Under the pieces are notes generated by a model. The model saw only the letters and a list, made by a program, of their open reading frames with translations, was not told the origin of the DNA and did no database searches. Shown in pieces: positions 39,390 through 47,947 of a stretch of DNA of 64,000 nt. Origin of the DNA: Roseibacillus sp. (GTDB taxonomy: Bacteria > Verrucomicrobiota > Verrucomicrobiia > Verrucomicrobiales > Akkermansiaceae); the NCBI GenBank assembly GCA_029242545.1, contig JAQWTV010000085.1:1-64000 (forward strand). Reading direction: 5' to 3'. The stretch's first letter is position 1. Every line of letters starts with the position of its first letter. Position numbers and translations under genes: made by a program.

Positions 39390-40127
39390 TTATATCTGAA
39401 AATCCTGCTGACCTGATTCGAGATGCAGGCCGCATTCATACCTTTCGCCTTTGAACCGTGTTGCCTCCTGCGAGCTCGAACTCCCGGGACTGGTTGAATG
39501 CCAGTCTCCCATCGTGACATACCCGGCCGCGGCAAGAGGATGTCGCGGAAGATCATGATCATCGATAAAGCGCTCAACTTTCTCACTATTCCAATCGATA
39601 ATCGGATACACCTTGAGAGTTCTTGCCTGCCGCTCGGCCATGTCACGTTGGGAACGCCCTCTTGACTGCTGATGCCTGAGACCGCTGATCCATGCATCGG
39701 CACCCAGATCCTGCAGAGCCCGGTTCATGGGCTCCACCTTGTGCACCCGGGCATAATTGTTCAGATCCGTCCCCCCATTCTCCCACTGTTTTCCATGAAG
39801 AGCCTCCTGACGGGCCGCTGTCACACGTGGGGAGTAGACATGAGCGCTGAAATCCAGCTCCTTCTCCAAAAGGGAAGCATAGCGGTAGGTCTCAGGGAAA
39901 AGATATCCAGTATCTATGAAGACCACCGGGATACGAGGCGCATGCTCTCGGAGCAGCTTTAACATCACCGCAGACTGTAAGCCGAAACTCGTGGTGGCTA
40001 CAATCCGGCCCGTAAACCTCTCAGCAAGAAACTCGACCCGCTCCCCGGCTTCCAGAGAACGAAGCTGCGTGTTCAGAACACTCAGATCATCCTCAGTTCC
40101 TATTTCTGATTGTTTTTCAGCTCTCAT
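39390..40127 (-). CDS. cysH: Phosphoadenylyl-sulfate reductase, PAPS type
   Basis: A 245-residue thioredoxin-dependent enzyme reducing activated sulfate to sulfite. The PP-loop-like motif is 'TTSFGLQSAVMLKLL' (about 44-58), followed by 'VVFIDTGYLFPETY'. The catalytic Cys is in ERYECGLH near the C-terminus. The CC...CxxC cysteines binding a 4Fe-4S cluster in APS reductases are missing, so PAPS specificity is likely. A GAGG Shine-Dalgarno precedes the ATG. It is 15 bp from cysI. No sulfate adenylyltransferase or APS kinase gene is in the window. Confidence 0.95.
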   Translation of the reverse strand: MRAEKQSEIGTEDDLSVLNTQLRSLEAGERVEFLAERFTGRIVATTSFGLQSAVMLKLLREHAPRIPVVFIDTGYLFPETYRYASLLEKELDFSAHVYSPRVTAARQEALHGKQWENGGTDLNNYARVHKVEPMNRALQDLGADAWISGLRHQQSRGRSQRDMAERQARTLKVYPIIDWNSEKVERFIDDHDLPRHPLAAAGYVTMGDWHSTSPGSSSSQEATRFKGERYECGLHLESGQQDFQI

Positions 40128-40142
40128 GATCCTCTAGCAGTC

Positions 40143-41861
40143 TCATTCCTCCTCACTGGCGACATCCTGATGAAAATCCAACCCGTTGGACGTCGCTTTT
40201 ACGTAGGCTTTCCTAATGACGAAGTCTCCAAAGCTCTCTTTTGCCTCACGGCTCCCCGCATAGTCCCTGATGATCGGCTCGAGGAGACTTCTGATGTCCT
40301 CGCTCTTAACGCTGGCGCGGTAAAGCTTACTAAGCCTCTGTCCGGAGAACCCTCCGCCAAGGTAGACGTTATATTTACCTGGGGCCCGACCCACAAAGGC
40401 TATTTCCGCGATATAAGGCCTCGCGCAGCCGTTAGGACAACCAGTCATACGAATGGTTATCGCGTCATGCCTCAGGCCACATTCCTCAATCACCTCTTCC
40501 AGTTCGGTTACAACATCGGGCAGATGTCGCTCAGCCTCTGCTAAAGCAAGACCACAAGTTGGAAGGGCGACACAGGCTAACGAGTGTAGTCGTAATCCCG
40601 TATGCTGCTTGTGGGTATCAAGCCCGTATTCATCGATCAATTGCTTCACCGCTGGACGCTGGTCTCTGGAAATCTTCGCCACGACAAGGTTCTGGTTTCC
40701 CGTCAGACGGAATTCGCCGTCGAGCATTCTGGCTATTGCGAGAAATCCACTTCGCCAGCGGGCCTCGTCCGTATCGCAGACCCGCCCCCCGGGAACGTAA
40801 AACGTATAGTTAGCAGTACCATCCCCGTTCTCCGACCACCCATAACGGTCCCCATTCTCAGTAAACTCATAGGGGCGTTCCTCCTCTAGCGTGTAACCCA
40901 GTCGCTCCTCTACAAGTGCGCTGAACCCATCGACTCCGTGATCGTCGACAGTATATTTCAGCCGGGCATGCTTTCGCTCGTGGCGGTCCCCATGGTCCCG
41001 TTGCACCAGCACAATTTTTTCTGCAACATCCACGACCTTATCGGCCGCCACAAATCCGATCACATCCGCTACCCTGGGATAGGTTTCTTCCTGGCCGTGA
41101 GTCATGCCCATCCCCCCCCCTACAGCCACATTGAAGCCTTCGAGGCCCTTCTTTCCTGTAATCGCGATGAAAGAGAGGTCATTGGCATATACGTCAACGT
41201 CATTATTGGGCGGCACCGCCACCGCGATCTTAAATTTGCGGGGCAGATAGTGCTTCCCGTAGATCGGCTCTTCCTGCCGTATGCTTGATTCTACCTTTTC
41301 TCCATCGAGCCATATCTCGTGATAGGCCCCAGTAGCAGGGGTTAGGTGATCACTGAGGTCCTTTGATACCTGCAGTATTTCGGCATGAAGCGCAGAGGCA
41401 TCAGGATTCGCGTTACACATCACATTGCGGTTTACGTCACCACAGGCTGCGATGGTATCCAGCGCGGTTTCATTGATTTCCCGGATCGTTCTTTTCAGAT
41501 TACTCTTTATGATTCCGTGAAGTTGATAGGCCTGCCGCGTTGTAAGTTTGATTGTGTCGTTAGCATACTCCGTAGCCATTCGGTCGACTTCAATCCATTG
41601 CTCTGGAGTAGACACTCCTCCGGGAACCCGGATTCGGATCATGAAGGAAAATGCCTTTTCCAGTTTGTGCATTCGCCGGGCTGACCGAGCATCTCGGTCA
41701 TCCTGCTGATAAGAGCCGTGAAACTTGAGTAACTGTTGATCGTCAGCAGAGATGCCCCCGGTCGAAAGATCCGAGAGTCCCTCTGCGATCGTTCCTCTTA
41801 GATAATCGCTACGGTCCTTGATACCCTCATTTGCCGCCAGTTTACGCTCTGCTGTGCTCAT
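40143..41861 (-). CDS. cysI: Sulfite reductase haemoprotein beta subunit
   Basis: Six-electron reduction of sulfite to sulfide with the CysJ flavoprotein. The 572 residues are nearly the same length as E. coli CysI (570). ATG 41861 starts 'MSTAERKLAANEGIKDRSDYLRG'; sequence further upstream in frame overlaps cysJ. Siroheme and 4Fe-4S ligands are the four Cys in ACVALPTCGLA (about 430-440) and MTGCPNGCARPY (about 475-486). Substrate-binding 'RLTTRQAYQLHGI' and 'CGDVNRNVMC' are conserved. Coupled to cysJ by a 17-bp gap. Confidence 0.96.
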   Translation of the reverse strand: MSTAERKLAANEGIKDRSDYLRGTIAEGLSDLSTGGISADDQQLLKFHGSYQQDDRDARSARRMHKLEKAFSFMIRIRVPGGVSTPEQWIEVDRMATEYANDTIKLTTRQAYQLHGIIKSNLKRTIREINETALDTIAACGDVNRNVMCNANPDASALHAEILQVSKDLSDHLTPATGAYHEIWLDGEKVESSIRQEEPIYGKHYLPRKFKIAVAVPPNNDVDVYANDLSFIAITGKKGLEGFNVAVGGGMGMTHGQEETYPRVADVIGFVAADKVVDVAEKIVLVQRDHGDRHERKHARLKYTVDDHGVDGFSALVEERLGYTLEEERPYEFTENGDRYGWSENGDGTANYTFYVPGGRVCDTDEARWRSGFLAIARMLDGEFRLTGNQNLVVAKISRDQRPAVKQLIDEYGLDTHKQHTGLRLHSLACVALPTCGLALAEAERHLPDVVTELEEVIEECGLRHDAITIRMTGCPNGCARPYIAEIAFVGRAPGKYNVYLGGGFSGQRLSKLYRASVKSEDIRSLLEPIIRDYAGSREAKESFGDFVIRKAYVKATSNGLDFHQDVASEEE

Positions 41862-41878
41862 TTGCCTGAAATGTGAAA

Positions 41879-43639
41879 TTAGTAAACGTCTCGTTGATAT
41901 CGTCCGTTGCTTTTCAGCTCCCCAAGATAGGTGTCCGCTGCCTCGGGAGTCCGGCCTCCCCATGATTGCACCACATCCAAAAGTGCCGCGTGGACGTCCG
42001 GAGCCATCCGGGAGGCATCACCGCAGACATAGAAGTGAGCTCCCTTTTCTAACCATTCCCATATCTCCTGACCCTTTTCCCGAATCCGGTCCTGCACGTA
42101 TATTTTTTCCGGCTGATCCCGGGAAAACGCCACATCAAGTCGAGTCAGCGCCCCGGACTTGAGATGATCCTGCCACTCAAGCTGGTAAAGAAAGTCATAG
42201 GTAAAGCGCTGGTCACCAAATATCAGCCAACTGGGACCACTTCCCTCCCTCGTAGACCGGTCCTCGACAAAAGCCCGGAAAGGGGCAACCCCTGTTCCCG
42301 GTCCAACCATAATGATGGGCAGGGCGTCATTCTCGGGAAGCCGGAATCGCTTATTGGGAGAGACAAAAACGGGCACAGTATCCCCCTCTACGACCAAATC
42401 AGCAAGACAGGTTGAGGCTACTCCCTTTCTCGAAAAGCCATGCCCCTCATAGCGCACTGCCGCCACTGTCAGGTGGACTTCTCCATCATGTTCCCGCGGA
42501 CTGGAGGAAATCGAGTAAAGTCGCGCTGGCAACATCCTCAGAATATCAATCAACTCCTGAGCCTCTGTCTTCGGCGCCGGAAAATCTCGAAGCAGGTCAA
42601 CAATCTGACGCCCCCAACTCCAATCCTTGAACAGCTTACGACTCTCGTCACCAAGAAGGGTTTCCAGCTGCTTGGATCCGCTATGAGTCTGCCAAGCAGA
42701 TGCTACCTTTCTCGACAGGGCCGTGATGTCGTAATCCTCCCGAAGAGCCTCTCGCAAGGCCTTGTCATCCGAGGAACGCGTCCTCACAATCTCATCCCCA
42801 GTCAGGCCGACTGCCCCAAGGAGAGAATCAACCACGTCATCGGCATTGGTTGGAATAACCGCCAGCGAATCTCCAACCTCATAATTGAGCCCTGATCCCT
42901 CGAGACTGAGTTCGAAGTGCCAAGTCTCTTTTGCAGAGCCGGATGCATTCAAGAGCACCTTGTCGAGAAGCCGTGCTGGGAAGGGATTTTTCTTCCCATA
43001 TTTCGTGGTAGTGGCTGCCACCGGAGAGCTCACCAGCGTCGACACATTGATTGCCGATCCTCCGAGCTCTTCCAGAGCCCTCTCGACCCACTCCTCATAA
43101 GACTCCTCAAAGTCTACGTCACAATCCACCCGGGAGGTCACCCTTTTCGCCCCAAGCTTATCCAGCTGTTGGTCCACATCCTTGCCGACCTTGCAGAAAT
43201 GCTCGTAACTGGTGTCACCGAGAGCGCAGACGGAGTATCTAACCCCACTGAGGTCAGTTTCCCCTGACATTAGAGCACTATGAAATCCCTCCGCACTCTC
43301 CGGGGGATCACCCTCACCCCAGGTGCTGACCACTACGAGCAGACTTTCCGCCCGCGCCAGATCTTCCAGGCCAGACTCGCTCATATTCTTCAGCGTAGTC
43401 TTAAAGCCCTTACGCTTCGCGAGCTTCGCGCTGCGGGCAGCAAGTTCTTCCGAGTTACCAGATTCTGTGCCATAGAGTACGAGCAGGTTTCCCGGGCCAC
43501 CAGGCTGTGCGGCATGGCCGCCAGCATCGAGGAGCCTCCCCAGCCATGCACGCTGCTCGGCGCTACATCCCCTCAGAAATTTTGAGAGAATCTCACGCTG
43601 CCCCTTCTCAAAAGGCGCATCACCAGGAAGATTAAACAT
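41879..43639 (-). CDS. cysJ: Sulfite reductase flavoprotein alpha subunit
   Basis: A 586-residue diflavin reductase passing electrons from NADPH to CysI. The flavodoxin domain (about 50-190) has 'LLVLYGTESGNSEELAARSAKLA' for FMN binding and 'STWGEGDPPE'. The FAD-binding part (about 220-430) has 'RLYSISSSP'. The NADPH part (about 440-586) has 'IIMVGPGTGVAPFRAFVEDR', 'FGDQRFTYDFLYQLEW' and the C-terminal 'RYQRDVY' that packs on the flavin. It is the first gene of the cysJIHK operon. The ATG has no strong Shine-Dalgarno; a perfect palindrome lies 4 bp upstream. Confidence 0.96.
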   Translation of the reverse strand: MFNLPGDAPFEKGQREILSKFLRGCSAEQRAWLGRLLDAGGHAAQPGGPGNLLVLYGTESGNSEELAARSAKLAKRKGFKTTLKNMSESGLEDLARAESLLVVVSTWGEGDPPESAEGFHSALMSGETDLSGVRYSVCALGDTSYEHFCKVGKDVDQQLDKLGAKRVTSRVDCDVDFEESYEEWVERALEELGGSAINVSTLVSSPVAATTTKYGKKNPFPARLLDKVLLNASGSAKETWHFELSLEGSGLNYEVGDSLAVIPTNADDVVDSLLGAVGLTGDEIVRTRSSDDKALREALREDYDITALSRKVASAWQTHSGSKQLETLLGDESRKLFKDWSWGRQIVDLLRDFPAPKTEAQELIDILRMLPARLYSISSSPREHDGEVHLTVAAVRYEGHGFSRKGVASTCLADLVVEGDTVPVFVSPNKRFRLPENDALPIIMVGPGTGVAPFRAFVEDRSTREGSGPSWLIFGDQRFTYDFLYQLEWQDHLKSGALTRLDVAFSRDQPEKIYVQDRIREKGQEIWEWLEKGAHFYVCGDASRMAPDVHAALLDVVQSWGGRTPEAADTYLGELKSNGRYQRDVY

Positions 43640-43844: not shown

Positions 43845-44252
43845 CTAAACCCAGTGCCAATTCAGCAAGACCTCGATTTCTGGATGGATGCTATGATGCA
43901 CCGGACAGCCTAGGGCCGCACTTTCAAGAGCCTTACGATCTGGATGACTCTCCTCCAACGGCATGTTAATGGCGATCTCCAGTCTAGAGATCCGCCGTGG
44001 GAGATCTTCGGACATGTGCTTACCTACGCTGAGCTTCATCCCTTCGAGCGAGATCTCCTTCCGCTGGGCCACAATACCCATCACCGTAGCCATGCACGAC
44101 CCCAGAGACGCAGCCACCAGGTCTGTCGGGGAGAAGGCTTCTCCCCGGCCATTGTTGTCGACTGGTGCATCCGTAGAGAAAATGTCACCCGAGGGACCAT
44201 GAGTGGCTGAACATCGAAGCTTTCCCTCGTAATCTATCTTGATCTCAATCAT
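43845..44252 (-). CDS. OsmC-family peroxiredoxin-like protein
   Basis: A 135-residue OsmC/Ohr-superfamily protein. The two redox cysteines are seen in LGSCMATVMG (about 52-61) and LGCPVHHS (about 112-119). The family reduces organic hydroperoxides, usually with lipoyl or thioredoxin-like donors; this is the YhfA-like branch, whose substrate is unclear. The start overlaps the kinase stop by 4 bp, so it is in the same transcript as the sigma factor and kinase. Confidence 0.93.
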   Translation of the reverse strand: MIEIKIDYEGKLRCSATHGPSGDIFSTDAPVDNNGRGEAFSPTDLVAASLGSCMATVMGIVAQRKEISLEGMKLSVGKHMSEDLPRRISRLEIAINMPLEESHPDRKALESAALGCPVHHSIHPEIEVLLNWHWV

Positions 44253-47011
44253 TGCTCTGTTGGTTCTTCGGTTACGCTTTCAGGTTCCTCCTCCTTTTCG
44301 ACGATTACCGGCACTTTGGCAAGAACGACCCGGAAACCATAAAGACCAGAAGTATCGACGCCGCCGCCACTCTGGGATGGTTTGCGAACTGGCTGTCTCA
44401 CAGAAGCTTTAAGGTGATTATCATCAAAGCTTTTCCAGCAAGCTCCTCGAGCAACGTCGTATTGTCCAAATGAGCTGTAGTCGCTCGCAACCCACTCCAG
44501 AACATTCCCTTCAAGGTCATACATCTTTTGTGTCCCTACCGACCTTCCGGCGTAGCTGGCCACTGGAGAGGTGAAAGCAGCACCGTCTTCGTATCCAACA
44601 AGGTGCTCATCAGCATCAAGAGAGCCCATATCGGCCAGACTAACGTCCGCAAAATTCCCGCCACTCACTGGCGGAGGCATCTGCGGACCCCAGAAAAACC
44701 CTTCGGCCTGCCCATGTTTATCCATAGGCCACTCTCCAATCTCACCTTCGAGCCCTACGAAAATACTCCACTCAGGATCGCTCGGAAGGCGATAATGGTG
44801 CCCTGCTCCAATTTCTCCCTCCTTGCGCTCTCGAAGAGTCAACCACAGGCAAAAGAGTTCGGCATCCCCTCTCGTCACATTTACGACCGGATGATCAGGC
44901 CCATATGCTCCCTCATCTGCAAAATCAGGCGGCAGCGGAGGGGTGAACGTCCCAGCCCATCGATTAATGAAGCGTGCATAATCCACCGCTGCACTTTTAT
45001 CCAGACGCCTGGGAAGTGGAATTTTCTCCGCCAGGCTCTCCACGAAGGCATCAAAGTCACTTTGGCGGGTTTCCCAGATGCTCGCGAGCAACTCTAGATT
45101 CTCGCGGACCGGAATAAACTGCATACCCAGGCTATTCTCCAGTGGTTCCCTCTGATAATCAAAAAGGTTCTCTCTCTGGAGTGCTACCAGAATCTCATCC
45201 GAGACCTCGTTCATCCGAAGAGCGATAGGCCGCTCGTAACGACGAAACCCAGGAAGCTCCACGATAAGCTTGAGCTCTCCCTGGCCCTTGGGATTCAGCT
45301 CTACCCGTACTCCTCGCTCCTCCGCATCATTTCCATCTAGTGGCGTCTGCCCCAAGGTTTGCGAGTAGACGTTTCCCTTGTGGGTTCTCTGCACATAGAC
45401 ATTCGCCCCAGCAGGTTTACTTGTGATCCTCAAGTAGGCATAGGCCGTGGTTCGGACAATCGCGTAGAAAGGATGCATCTTCCTTTTCTTCGGATCCTCC
45501 TCTTTGAGACCTCCAATAAAGTGCCGCTTATCCAACTGAAACTCAAACCACTGATCCTCCTCGAGATGTGTCTCCCTGCACTGAACCTCAAGCCATTTCA
45601 CATAGTCACGGGCCTCCCGCTCGTTGACGAGGACAACCTCCTTTTCAATTCCATTTTTAAAGAGAGTTTGGACTACTCCACTTTGCTTGTTCGTCGACTG
45701 CTGGAAATAATCCCATGACTCAGCCGTCACGTAATACTGACTGATGTGGTAGTCCTCCTCGGGCTGGTAGGTCGCTCCAAAAATGTCCACCCAGGGCTCG
45801 AGTTCCCGAGGGGGGTTGAACTCAATCAAGCTTGGCCCAATCACCGCTCCTCTCTCACTGACAGTTTGCGTGACGGTTTGCGGACGATATCCCTTTAGTT
45901 CGAGGGTAACTGTAACATTACTCCCCTCGGGGTAATCCCGGGGATCCAGAGGCGTGAGTCCAAGAATCTCACCATCCTCACTGAAAACGGCTGCACCCGG
46001 CGGATTACTCAGGATCGTTACGCTTCTCATCTGCAACGGAGGTGGCTCCAGCGAGCCCGAATCCGAGGCGGTCTCGAGTGGGGATAGGGCAATCATCTGA
46101 CCGAGAGCCACCATCACGGTAAGACCCCCGAGCACACCAGCCACTAACCCCGTTCGCGTCCTAAACGGTCGTGACCGCCCCTGCTCAAGCCTGTGAAGCT
46201 CATGTCTTAAATCCGCGGCTCTTCTGATTTTTCTTCGTGAGATCCTTGGTTCGCAGATATCACAGATGACGGAATTAAGCGCCCGCCACCTTTTAAGCTT
46301 CACTCCCTCGGGCAACCGGTCCGGCAGTTCGGGAAAATCCAGGCGATCCTTTCCCGTTGCCATCTCGTATAGGACTTTTCCGAGGCTATACACATCAGCC
46401 TGGGCCGACCCAGGGCCTTCCGGGGGAACAAATCCCTCGGTCCCAACAAAGGTCTGCTGTCCTCGGAGAGCCACCAACCCGACATCTGCCAGCTTCGCCT
46501 TTCCATCGACAAAGATCACATTGGACGGCTTCACGTCCCGGTGAGCGAGGCCCTTTTCGTGAAGGTGCTGCAATGCCTCTGCCAGAGTTCGACCACAGGC
46601 AATACAATCCTCCACCGCAATACCGTCCCCCCCGGCCTCTTTCATATCACTGCGGAGAGTTCGTGGCTCGTATTCTACCGAATTAATGTCACGCCCCGTG
46701 GTAACATCATCGCCCAACTCCATCACATAGTAATAGAAGGGCTCTTCTTCCACCTCTGCCCGTCCGACGTGCAGGATATGCACAAGTCCGGGATGGTCTC
46801 TTGAAATAGGTTCATATTTGAGGAGCCCCTCGAACTCCCTCTCAAATCCACGTTGATCTTCAAAGTTATTATGCCAGACAGCCTTCACTGCCCGGAGCGC
46901 ACCCGTTACTCCCCGGGCAAGCCAAACCTCACCGTAGGCACCGCCGCCAATTTTTCTCAGAACCTCATGATCCGGGATCGTGAGCTCTAGGCGAACATTA
47001 CTGCTTTGCAT
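44249..47011 (-). CDS. Ser/Thr protein kinase with PEGA and degenerate FGE-like domains
   Basis: A 920-residue membrane kinase. The kinase domain (about 13-290) has the Gly-rich loop IGGGAYGEV (21-29), Lys43 in AVK, and HRDVKPSN (157-164). The DFG motif is DVG (176-178): the metal Asp is kept but the Phe is changed. A transmembrane helix lies at about 307-329. Two PEGA-like domains follow ('TILSNPPGAAVFSEDGEILGLTPLDPRDYPEG', about 350-400; and a second at about 520-600). The C-terminal FGE/SUMF1-like domain (about 630-905) has 'LEGNVLEWVASD' and 'ARGACWKSF...ASVRQP...YGFRVVL', degenerate against GNVWEW and RGGSW. It overlaps the sigma gene by 14 bp. Confidence 0.9.
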   Translation of the reverse strand: MQSSNVRLELTIPDHEVLRKIGGGAYGEVWLARGVTGALRAVKAVWHNNFEDQRGFEREFEGLLKYEPISRDHPGLVHILHVGRAEVEEEPFYYYVMELGDDVTTGRDINSVEYEPRTLRSDMKEAGGDGIAVEDCIACGRTLAEALQHLHEKGLAHRDVKPSNVIFVDGKAKLADVGLVALRGQQTFVGTEGFVPPEGPGSAQADVYSLGKVLYEMATGKDRLDFPELPDRLPEGVKLKRWRALNSVICDICEPRISRRKIRRAADLRHELHRLEQGRSRPFRTRTGLVAGVLGGLTVMVALGQMIALSPLETASDSGSLEPPPLQMRSVTILSNPPGAAVFSEDGEILGLTPLDPRDYPEGSNVTVTLELKGYRPQTVTQTVSERGAVIGPSLIEFNPPRELEPWVDIFGATYQPEEDYHISQYYVTAESWDYFQQSTNKQSGVVQTLFKNGIEKEVVLVNEREARDYVKWLEVQCRETHLEEDQWFEFQLDKRHFIGGLKEEDPKKRKMHPFYAIVRTTAYAYLRITSKPAGANVYVQRTHKGNVYSQTLGQTPLDGNDAEERGVRVELNPKGQGELKLIVELPGFRRYERPIALRMNEVSDEILVALQRENLFDYQREPLENSLGMQFIPVRENLELLASIWETRQSDFDAFVESLAEKIPLPRRLDKSAAVDYARFINRWAGTFTPPLPPDFADEGAYGPDHPVVNVTRGDAELFCLWLTLRERKEGEIGAGHHYRLPSDPEWSIFVGLEGEIGEWPMDKHGQAEGFFWGPQMPPPVSGGNFADVSLADMGSLDADEHLVGYEDGAAFTSPVASYAGRSVGTQKMYDLEGNVLEWVASDYSSFGQYDVARGACWKSFDDNHLKASVRQPVRKPSQSGGGVDTSGLYGFRVVLAKVPVIVEKEEEPESVTEEPTEQ

Positions 47012-47681
47012 GCTTCTCGAGTTTCACCAGCTCTCGTTTTAAAACAGCGCCCACCCGGTGCTTTGCCAGGTAGACCTGAGCCATGCTCACCCCAAGATGG
47101 GCCTGAACTTTCTTGGCGTCCCACTCCCTGACTACGTAGTAATCAAAAATTTGATATTGCTTCGGCGATACCTGCCCCTTTACCCGCGCGAGAGCCGCAT
47201 CCGCGAGGTTTTTTTTCCACTCCACATTCCACATGCGTTCCAGCAAGCCCCCGCTTGGATCCTCAAAACGGTCAATTACTGCGGTTTTGCGCTCCTCGTT
47301 CCACTCATTCCCTGCCATCGCCGTATCTTTCTTGCGCCTCCGGAATTGATCATTAATCCGCCAGCGGGTCATATTCATCAGCCACGTCTTGAATGATCCC
47401 TGCTTCGGATCATACAGCTGCTTCCTGCTTTGCTTGGCAATCGATAGAATAGTCTCCTGAACGACGTCAAAGGCCTCATCGGAACGTAGTCCCGCCTTCA
47501 GGCCAACCGAATATATCAGGCGCCAGTAGGTCTGGTAGAATTCATCCCAAGTCCTTTGGTCCTCCCAGTTTTCAAGGCGCGCGATCAGACTTTTACGCGT
47601 GCGCTCGTAGGCCTGCTCGAAGCCTTTTTTTCGATCACCTTCTGCGGGATCGGATTGTTCGCTCTGAGAATCTTCGGGCAT
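46998..47681 (-). CDS. ECF-like sigma factor paired with the Ser/Thr kinase
   Basis: A 227-residue sigma factor. Region 2 (about 45-115) shows 'WDEFYQTYWRLIYSVGLKAGLRSDEAFDVVQETILSIAKQSR' and 'FKTWLMNMTRWRINDQFRRR'. Region 4 (about 170-220) shows 'KQYQIFDYYVVREWDAKKVQAHLGVSMAQVYLAKHRV', a helix-turn-helix. Pairing of such sigma factors with adjoining Ser/Thr kinases is known in Planctomycetes and Verrucomicrobia, where phosphorylation may control activity; no FecR or anti-sigma gene is present here. It heads a three-gene overlapping transcript and is divergent from the DUF3500 gene. Confidence 0.9.
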   Translation of the reverse strand: MPEDSQSEQSDPAEGDRKKGFEQAYERTRKSLIARLENWEDQRTWDEFYQTYWRLIYSVGLKAGLRSDEAFDVVQETILSIAKQSRKQLYDPKQGSFKTWLMNMTRWRINDQFRRRKKDTAMAGNEWNEERKTAVIDRFEDPSGGLLERMWNVEWKKNLADAALARVKGQVSPKQYQIFDYYVVREWDAKKVQAHLGVSMAQVYLAKHRVGAVLKRELVKLEKHAKQ

Positions 47682-47947
47682 TACGAGGCGTGGTCACTCA
47701 ACAATAAAACGCCCCCAACTCCTCTGACTACCATAGAATTATTGTTTGCTTCAGAATTTCCCTCCGAAGAAACGCCTACAAAACCAATATCCTCCTTGGA
47801 AAACATCTTAGATCTTCCTCAAAGTCTACCATTTCTGGGTATTTTACTTACCCGCCCCAACTCCGAGTAAAAACCCTCCTAACCTGCCCCACCGCGCGCT
47901 GAAAAGGTTTGCCTCCTCATCTCCCTTTCCCCCAAGGTCTCTTGGTC

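Follow-up and report, generated by a model that had tools for sequence, protein, structure and literature searches.

The kinase-linked sigma factors that have been worked out, EcfP–PknT and EcfK–PknS, belong to group ECF43 of the extracytoplasmic function (ECF) sigma factors, for which passages of three papers describe a region 2.2 that, at least in EcfP, lacks the usual acidic residues, with phosphorylation proposed to restore the charge (PMC13147305, PMC8103513, PMC8999054). Other kinase-linked ECF groups, as described in passages of PMC8999054, keep a DAED-like acidic motif and may work differently. Here we describe a kinase-linked ECF sigma gene in a 64,000-nucleotide stretch of Roseibacillus sp. 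DNA (contig JAQWTV010000085.1; hereafter the window), where it is followed on the minus strand by a transmembrane Ser/Thr kinase gene and a gene for an OsmC-like protein. The main weight of the finding lies with the old sigma–kinase pair, to which OsmC is a conserved addition. Sequence evidence establishes the gene order, the overlaps, the domains and how far these are conserved, as well as the old partnership in which sigma and kinase match in copy number. The reading that we prefer, to which we give about an even chance, is that the three genes would form one operon for a kinase-gated ECF sigma system and a co-expressed cytosolic OsmC-like thiol protein, which would not itself be part of the switch. 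Among the titles listed by word searches of open-licence PubMed Central papers, none concerned the trio or this sigma–kinase pair. The features of the locus are as follows.

46998..47681, minus strand: ECF-type sigma factor gene, 227 amino acids (open reading frame list, Pfam, NCBIfam, region 2.2 alignment, fold match)
44249..47011, minus strand: transmembrane Ser/Thr kinase gene, 920 amino acids (open reading frame list, Pfam, hydropathy, predicted model)
46178..47011, minus strand: kinase domain, residues 1–278, with K43, H157-R158-D159 and D176 (Pfam and alignment)
46094..46153, minus strand: predicted membrane helix of the kinase, residues about 287–306 (hydropathy peak and helix in the model)
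45860..46024, minus strand: PEGA domain of the kinase, residues 330–384 (Pfam)
44324..44917, minus strand: FGE-sulfatase-like domain of the kinase, residues 699–896 (Pfam)
43845..44252, minus strand: OsmC-like gene, 135 amino acids, with conserved Cys53 and Cys116 (open reading frame list, Pfam, alignment)
46998..47011, minus strand: overlap of the sigma and kinase genes, 14 bp (open reading frame list)
44249..44252, minus strand: overlap of the kinase and OsmC-like genes, 4 bp, ATGA (open reading frame list)
47682..47735, minus strand: region upstream of the sigma gene, the site of the relatives' element GTGAAAGACA-N12-TATGGTA, which is diverged in the window and does not stand out

An earlier note, made from the sequence of the window alone, had given the three genes and both overlaps exactly to the base, and its description of them as a single overlapping unit holds up: the genes are tightly spaced, and close spacing recurs in relatives. 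The sigma/kinase gap is −14 in all five congeners compared (L033–L037), and the kinase/OsmC gap is −4 in four of them and −1 in one, single-base overlaps in relatives being approximate because their gene starts were set from match ends. Over 54 loci (L033–L086), some of which lack OsmC, the computed gaps fall mostly within about 50 bp either way, with extremes of −83 and +122. Scans inside the putative operon gave no excess of either promoters (two sigma-70-type sites, compared with 2.6 expected from shuffled sequence) or terminators (four terminator-like sites, compared with 4.3 expected). No RNA family near the operon reached its gathering score, and a Pfam scan of the window's eight neighbouring proteins found no anti-sigma domain.

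By its model scores, the first gene product is an ECF sigma factor, a class defined by having sigma2 and sigma4 domains only. It scores 34.6 bits against Pfam Sigma70_r2 (cut-off 24), with region 2 as its sole Pfam match, and 60.8 bits against the NCBIfam sigma70-ECF model TIGR02937 (cut-off 42.9) over residues 45–217. The best Protein Data Bank matches of its predicted model (mean predicted local distance difference test score of 70.7) are ECF sigma structures, with a top E value of 3.2e-4 and low template modelling scores. The kinase has Pfam matches to Pkinase (81.2 bits), PEGA (39.2 bits) and FGE-sulfatase (59.2 bits), each above its cut-off, and its predicted model has a predicted template modelling score of 0.40. 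The hydropathy peak recurs at the matching place in 44 of 55 family kinases, and the catalytic Lys, HRD motif and Asp are kept in 36 of the 37 kinases compared, the remaining one having HCD. From the membrane helix and the PEGA/FGE-like outer part, envelope sensing by the kinase is plausible, and it would be through this outer part that the kinase senses something outside the membrane. By analogy, the kinase likely phosphorylates the sigma factor.

Linkage of the three genes among relatives

The earlier note had set confinement of the OsmC linkage to this genome as the result that would refute its reading, and this is not what relatives show: the linkage is conserved. In the 97 genomes of the window's family, with counts tallied by hand from two match lists, sigma and OsmC share a strand and are linked, about 2.5–3.5 kb apart, in 67, which is 67 of the 82 that hold both genes. 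They are both present but apart in 15 (ten of genus g3 and five of genus g10), sigma is found alone in ten (two at contig ends) and OsmC alone in one (at a contig end), and neither is found in four, one of which (G080) has only a 24%-identical sigma. The gene-order survey that the earlier note had proposed likewise finds the trio order recurring. Among the named loci, which are the best 80 of 189 from a search with the sigma profile, the gene immediately after sigma is the kinase in 80 of 80, the arrangement that marks a kinase-linked ECF sigma factor. OsmC comes next after the kinase in 66 of the 72 named loci with room for it (67 at a looser cut-off); the other eight end at a contig end. The titles of these 80 records include Roseibacillus, Haloferula, Luteolibacter, Rubritalea and unclassified Akkermansiaceae. 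Sigma and kinase lie apart in Akkermansia-like genomes.

Beyond the family, the pair is far more constant than the trio. Across 141 genomes of the order (cut-offs of E ≤ 1e-60 for the kinase domain, 1e-20 for sigma and 1e-12 for OsmC), a kinase-domain relative is present in 138, sigma in 136 and OsmC in 123. In 128 of the 141, sigma and kinase have the same number of copies, and both are double in 43; three genomes lack both, two have the kinase without sigma and none has sigma without the kinase. OsmC is separable, with sigma present without it in 18 genomes and OsmC present without sigma in five. In class- or phylum-level loci from other families, sigma and kinase are adjacent in seven of seven and OsmC is present in none. 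The full trio occurs outside the family in five genomes (two of family f6 and three of f2). Judged from these comparisons, the sigma–kinase pair is an old partnership and OsmC a later, separable addition. Its matched copy numbers throughout this order, to which the Akkermansia gut bacteria seem to belong, make the pair a likely core regulator in the group. The earlier note had also called the pairing of sigma and kinase a known arrangement, which the passages of PMC8999054 on kinase-linked ECF groups confirm.

Some individual genomes depart from the common layout. In family f4 genomes such as G107 and G184, sigma and kinase are each present twice, with the copies distant from one another or on separate contigs and their numbers still matched, and in some other f4 genomes one sigma–kinase pair is still adjacent. 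The nearly complete g3 genomes G152 and G158 are without sigma and kinase at the cut-offs used and retain OsmC.

A tree built from 90 sigma rows, 88 of them counted, requires no fewer than seven changes of the linked state. The linked rows fall in one half of the tree, together with f3 and Akkermansia-like rows; the support of the halves is 50 and 82, and there is one extreme branch. We infer that the OsmC linkage was gained once and then lost repeatedly. In the reading that we prefer, OsmC would have joined the pair, downstream of it, in an ancestor that the window's family shares with some sister families, and would have stayed there because joint production of the thiol protein with sigma and kinase is useful. 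It is also possible, though we consider it unlikely, that OsmC merely rides a steady promoter without any functional tie, the linkage being a neutral accident of operon growth that happens to have lasted. The independent loss and retention of OsmC relative to the sigma–kinase pair would agree with this, as would its relocation, not loss, in Akkermansia-like and five g10 genomes; the linkage, however, lasts over many genera while the gene downstream of the trio varies, with no neighbour cluster in more than 7 of 47 loci.

The OsmC-like protein

Like the Ohr/OsmC thiol peroxidases, the third gene product falls in the OsmC family by Pfam (53.6 bits, cut-off 27.5) and has both redox cysteines, Cys53 and Cys116 being invariant in 48 of 48 sequences; Cys14 is present in 45 of 48. 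It differs from them at the glutamate of the Ohr triad (Ohr E50), the role of which is described in passages of PMC5962072: this residue aligns with Thr43, and the position is T in 47 of 48 sequences. Its score against NCBIfam Ohr, 25.9 bits, is below the cut-off of 88.85, and its nearest solved relative, 2pn2 (E 2e-30), is labelled uncharacterised. According to the same passages, the catalytic Arg sits in the N-terminal loop of Ohr and in the Gly-rich loop of OsmC (PMC5962072). Among the 48 sequences, 33 have H and 15 have R at position 13; at position 36, which lies in the Gly-rich stretch that holds the Arg of OsmC proteins, 38 have R, eight K and two L.

By these alignments and scores, the protein is a member of an uncharacterised subgroup without the Ohr glutamate, and it likely does thiol chemistry. 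It should not be named a peroxidase, an activity that is only putative. The earlier note had used that name and had proposed a response to peroxide or envelope stress; the peroxide response is unsupported, given Thr43 in place of the Ohr glutamate, the uncharacterised status of 2pn2 and a presence of OsmC that does not follow the sigma–kinase pair across the order. Most likely, the protein would serve as an output for protection or thiol handling that accompanies any expression of the operon; as a conserved partner, it offers a concrete handle on the purpose of the switch. The window's own genome has a second OsmC-family gene (G000:C132:47094-47396, L002), and most Akkermansia-like (g3) genomes have a second, more distant OsmC relative with 29–40% identity (for example, G028:C1:291579-291950).

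The conserved cysteines raise the alternative that OsmC serves the switch as a redox sensor or a feedback arm, its cysteines exchanging with those of the kinase such that thiol oxidation sets the activity of kinase or sigma. In addition to the OsmC cysteines described above, all 55 family kinases compared have C250 and C253, which form a CxxC close to where the kinase domain ends. The CxxC does not track OsmC linkage, however, and was rejected as a marker of it: unlinked f4 kinases carry it, C250 is absent in the OsmC-linked L204 and L223, and C253 is absent in eight Akkermansia-like kinases. Moreover, the 18 genomes of the order that have sigma without OsmC keep the sigma–kinase pair. We regard a sensor role as improbable.

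The element upstream of the sigma gene and the flanking genes

Upstream of sigma, at least 13 of the 17 letters of the element GTGAAAGACA-N12-TATGGTA are matched in 28 of 55 family loci, compared with 1.1% of 1,100 Markov resamples. The consensus was built from the same loci, so that its presence at sigma is expected and its scarcity elsewhere is the actual finding: with up to two mismatches, ten g7 genomes contain 11 sites, of which ten are at sigma (in all ten genomes) and one is elsewhere, with none in the reversed control. The element starts 40–43 nt before the script-chosen start codon in 20 of the 28 loci, and the approximately 11–14 nt left after its second half are too few for a usual leader. 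In the window's own upstream region the match, which lies at a different place, is a poor 11 of 17 letters, as many as 34% of resamples attain. A strict form of the pattern has 12 matches in 12 of the 97 genomes, eight of them at sigma; because the reversed control gives six, the matches away from sigma are at chance level. This strict pattern is missing from 10 of 11 genomes of the window's genus. A regulon defined by the element was rejected, on its near-uniqueness in the ten g7 genomes and the chance-level strict matches. The sigma factor could also mainly drive its own operon from this near-unique promoter, with a nearly leaderless mRNA, forming a self-contained switch of sigma, kinase and thiol protein with OsmC as its principal product, a proposal that we consider quite doubtful.

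Several points count against a kinase-gated sigma system with OsmC as its co-expressed output. The pair is not adjacent everywhere: the sequence fetched around sigma shows no kinase in 8 of 11 f2, 7 of 10 f4 and one of five f3 loci. In the ten genomes searched, the element hardly occurs away from sigma, so it points to no regulon and OsmC is a putative output; inspection by eye showed no such element upstream of 30 standalone osmC genes. A divergent coiled-coil gene precedes sigma in 22 of the 47 family loci, so that the trio is not the sole conserved part of the locus. Finally, related genomes are counted as independent in all tallies, and p-values are given no weight.

The 22 coiled-coil loci fall between L037 and L080, and the encoded protein matches no Pfam family above cut-off. 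At this position the window and its nearest relatives instead have a DUF3500 gene. About 200 bp downstream of osmC, also on the minus strand, lie cysJ, cysI and cysH (window positions 39390–43639), for assimilatory reduction of sulfite and 3′-phosphoadenosine 5′-phosphosulfate. Of the 54 loci L033–L086, 13 have CysI downstream, a possible connection of OsmC with sulfur.

Region 2.2 and described kinase-linked sigma factors

EcfP–PknT of Vibrio parahaemolyticus and EcfK–PknS of Xanthomonas citri resemble the window system in that an ECF sigma factor is encoded with a transmembrane Hanks-type kinase; the lack of an anti-sigma domain in the window's eight scanned neighbours is a further likeness. 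The window system differs from both in the PEGA/FGE-like outer part of its kinase, in the third, OsmC-like gene of its operon and in region 2.2, which retains its acidic residues as E69-A70-F71-D72 (EAFD). The first of these places (69) is acidic in 60 of 60 sigma proteins (E in 59 and D in one), D72 is kept in 60 of 60, and each of the 90 rows of the sigma tree, from six families, has an acidic pair of this kind. On the conservation at places 69 and 72, membership in ECF43 (EcfP/EcfK), where uncharged residues with a phosphorylatable Thr stand in for the acidic DAED motif, was rejected. An EcfP/PknT-type switch, in which sigma could not bind RNA polymerase until the kinase phosphorylates a Thr or Ser of region 2.2, would suit an ECF sigma gene adjoining a transmembrane Ser/Thr kinase gene, as known in ECF43 from passages of PMC8999054 and PMC8103513, but is very unlikely given this invariant acidic pair. 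Because the acidic residues are kept, activation by charge restoration does not fit, and the kinase would switch the sigma factor on by another route, phosphorylating either the sigma factor or a partner.

A likeness by description is to ECF59, ECF61, ECF62, ECF217 and ECF283, which passages of PMC8999054 describe as kinase-linked and as keeping DAED or a similar acidic motif, as the window sigma factor does. Four of the five representatives listed there are from Planctomycetes, and those passages make no mention of OsmC. With its polymerase-binding acids kept, the pair would serve as a test case for the control of kinase-linked sigma factors that do not belong to ECF43. By its motif and gene arrangement, the window system fits the description in PMC8999054 of kinase-linked ECF sigma factors that keep their acidic residues and possibly work in a different way.

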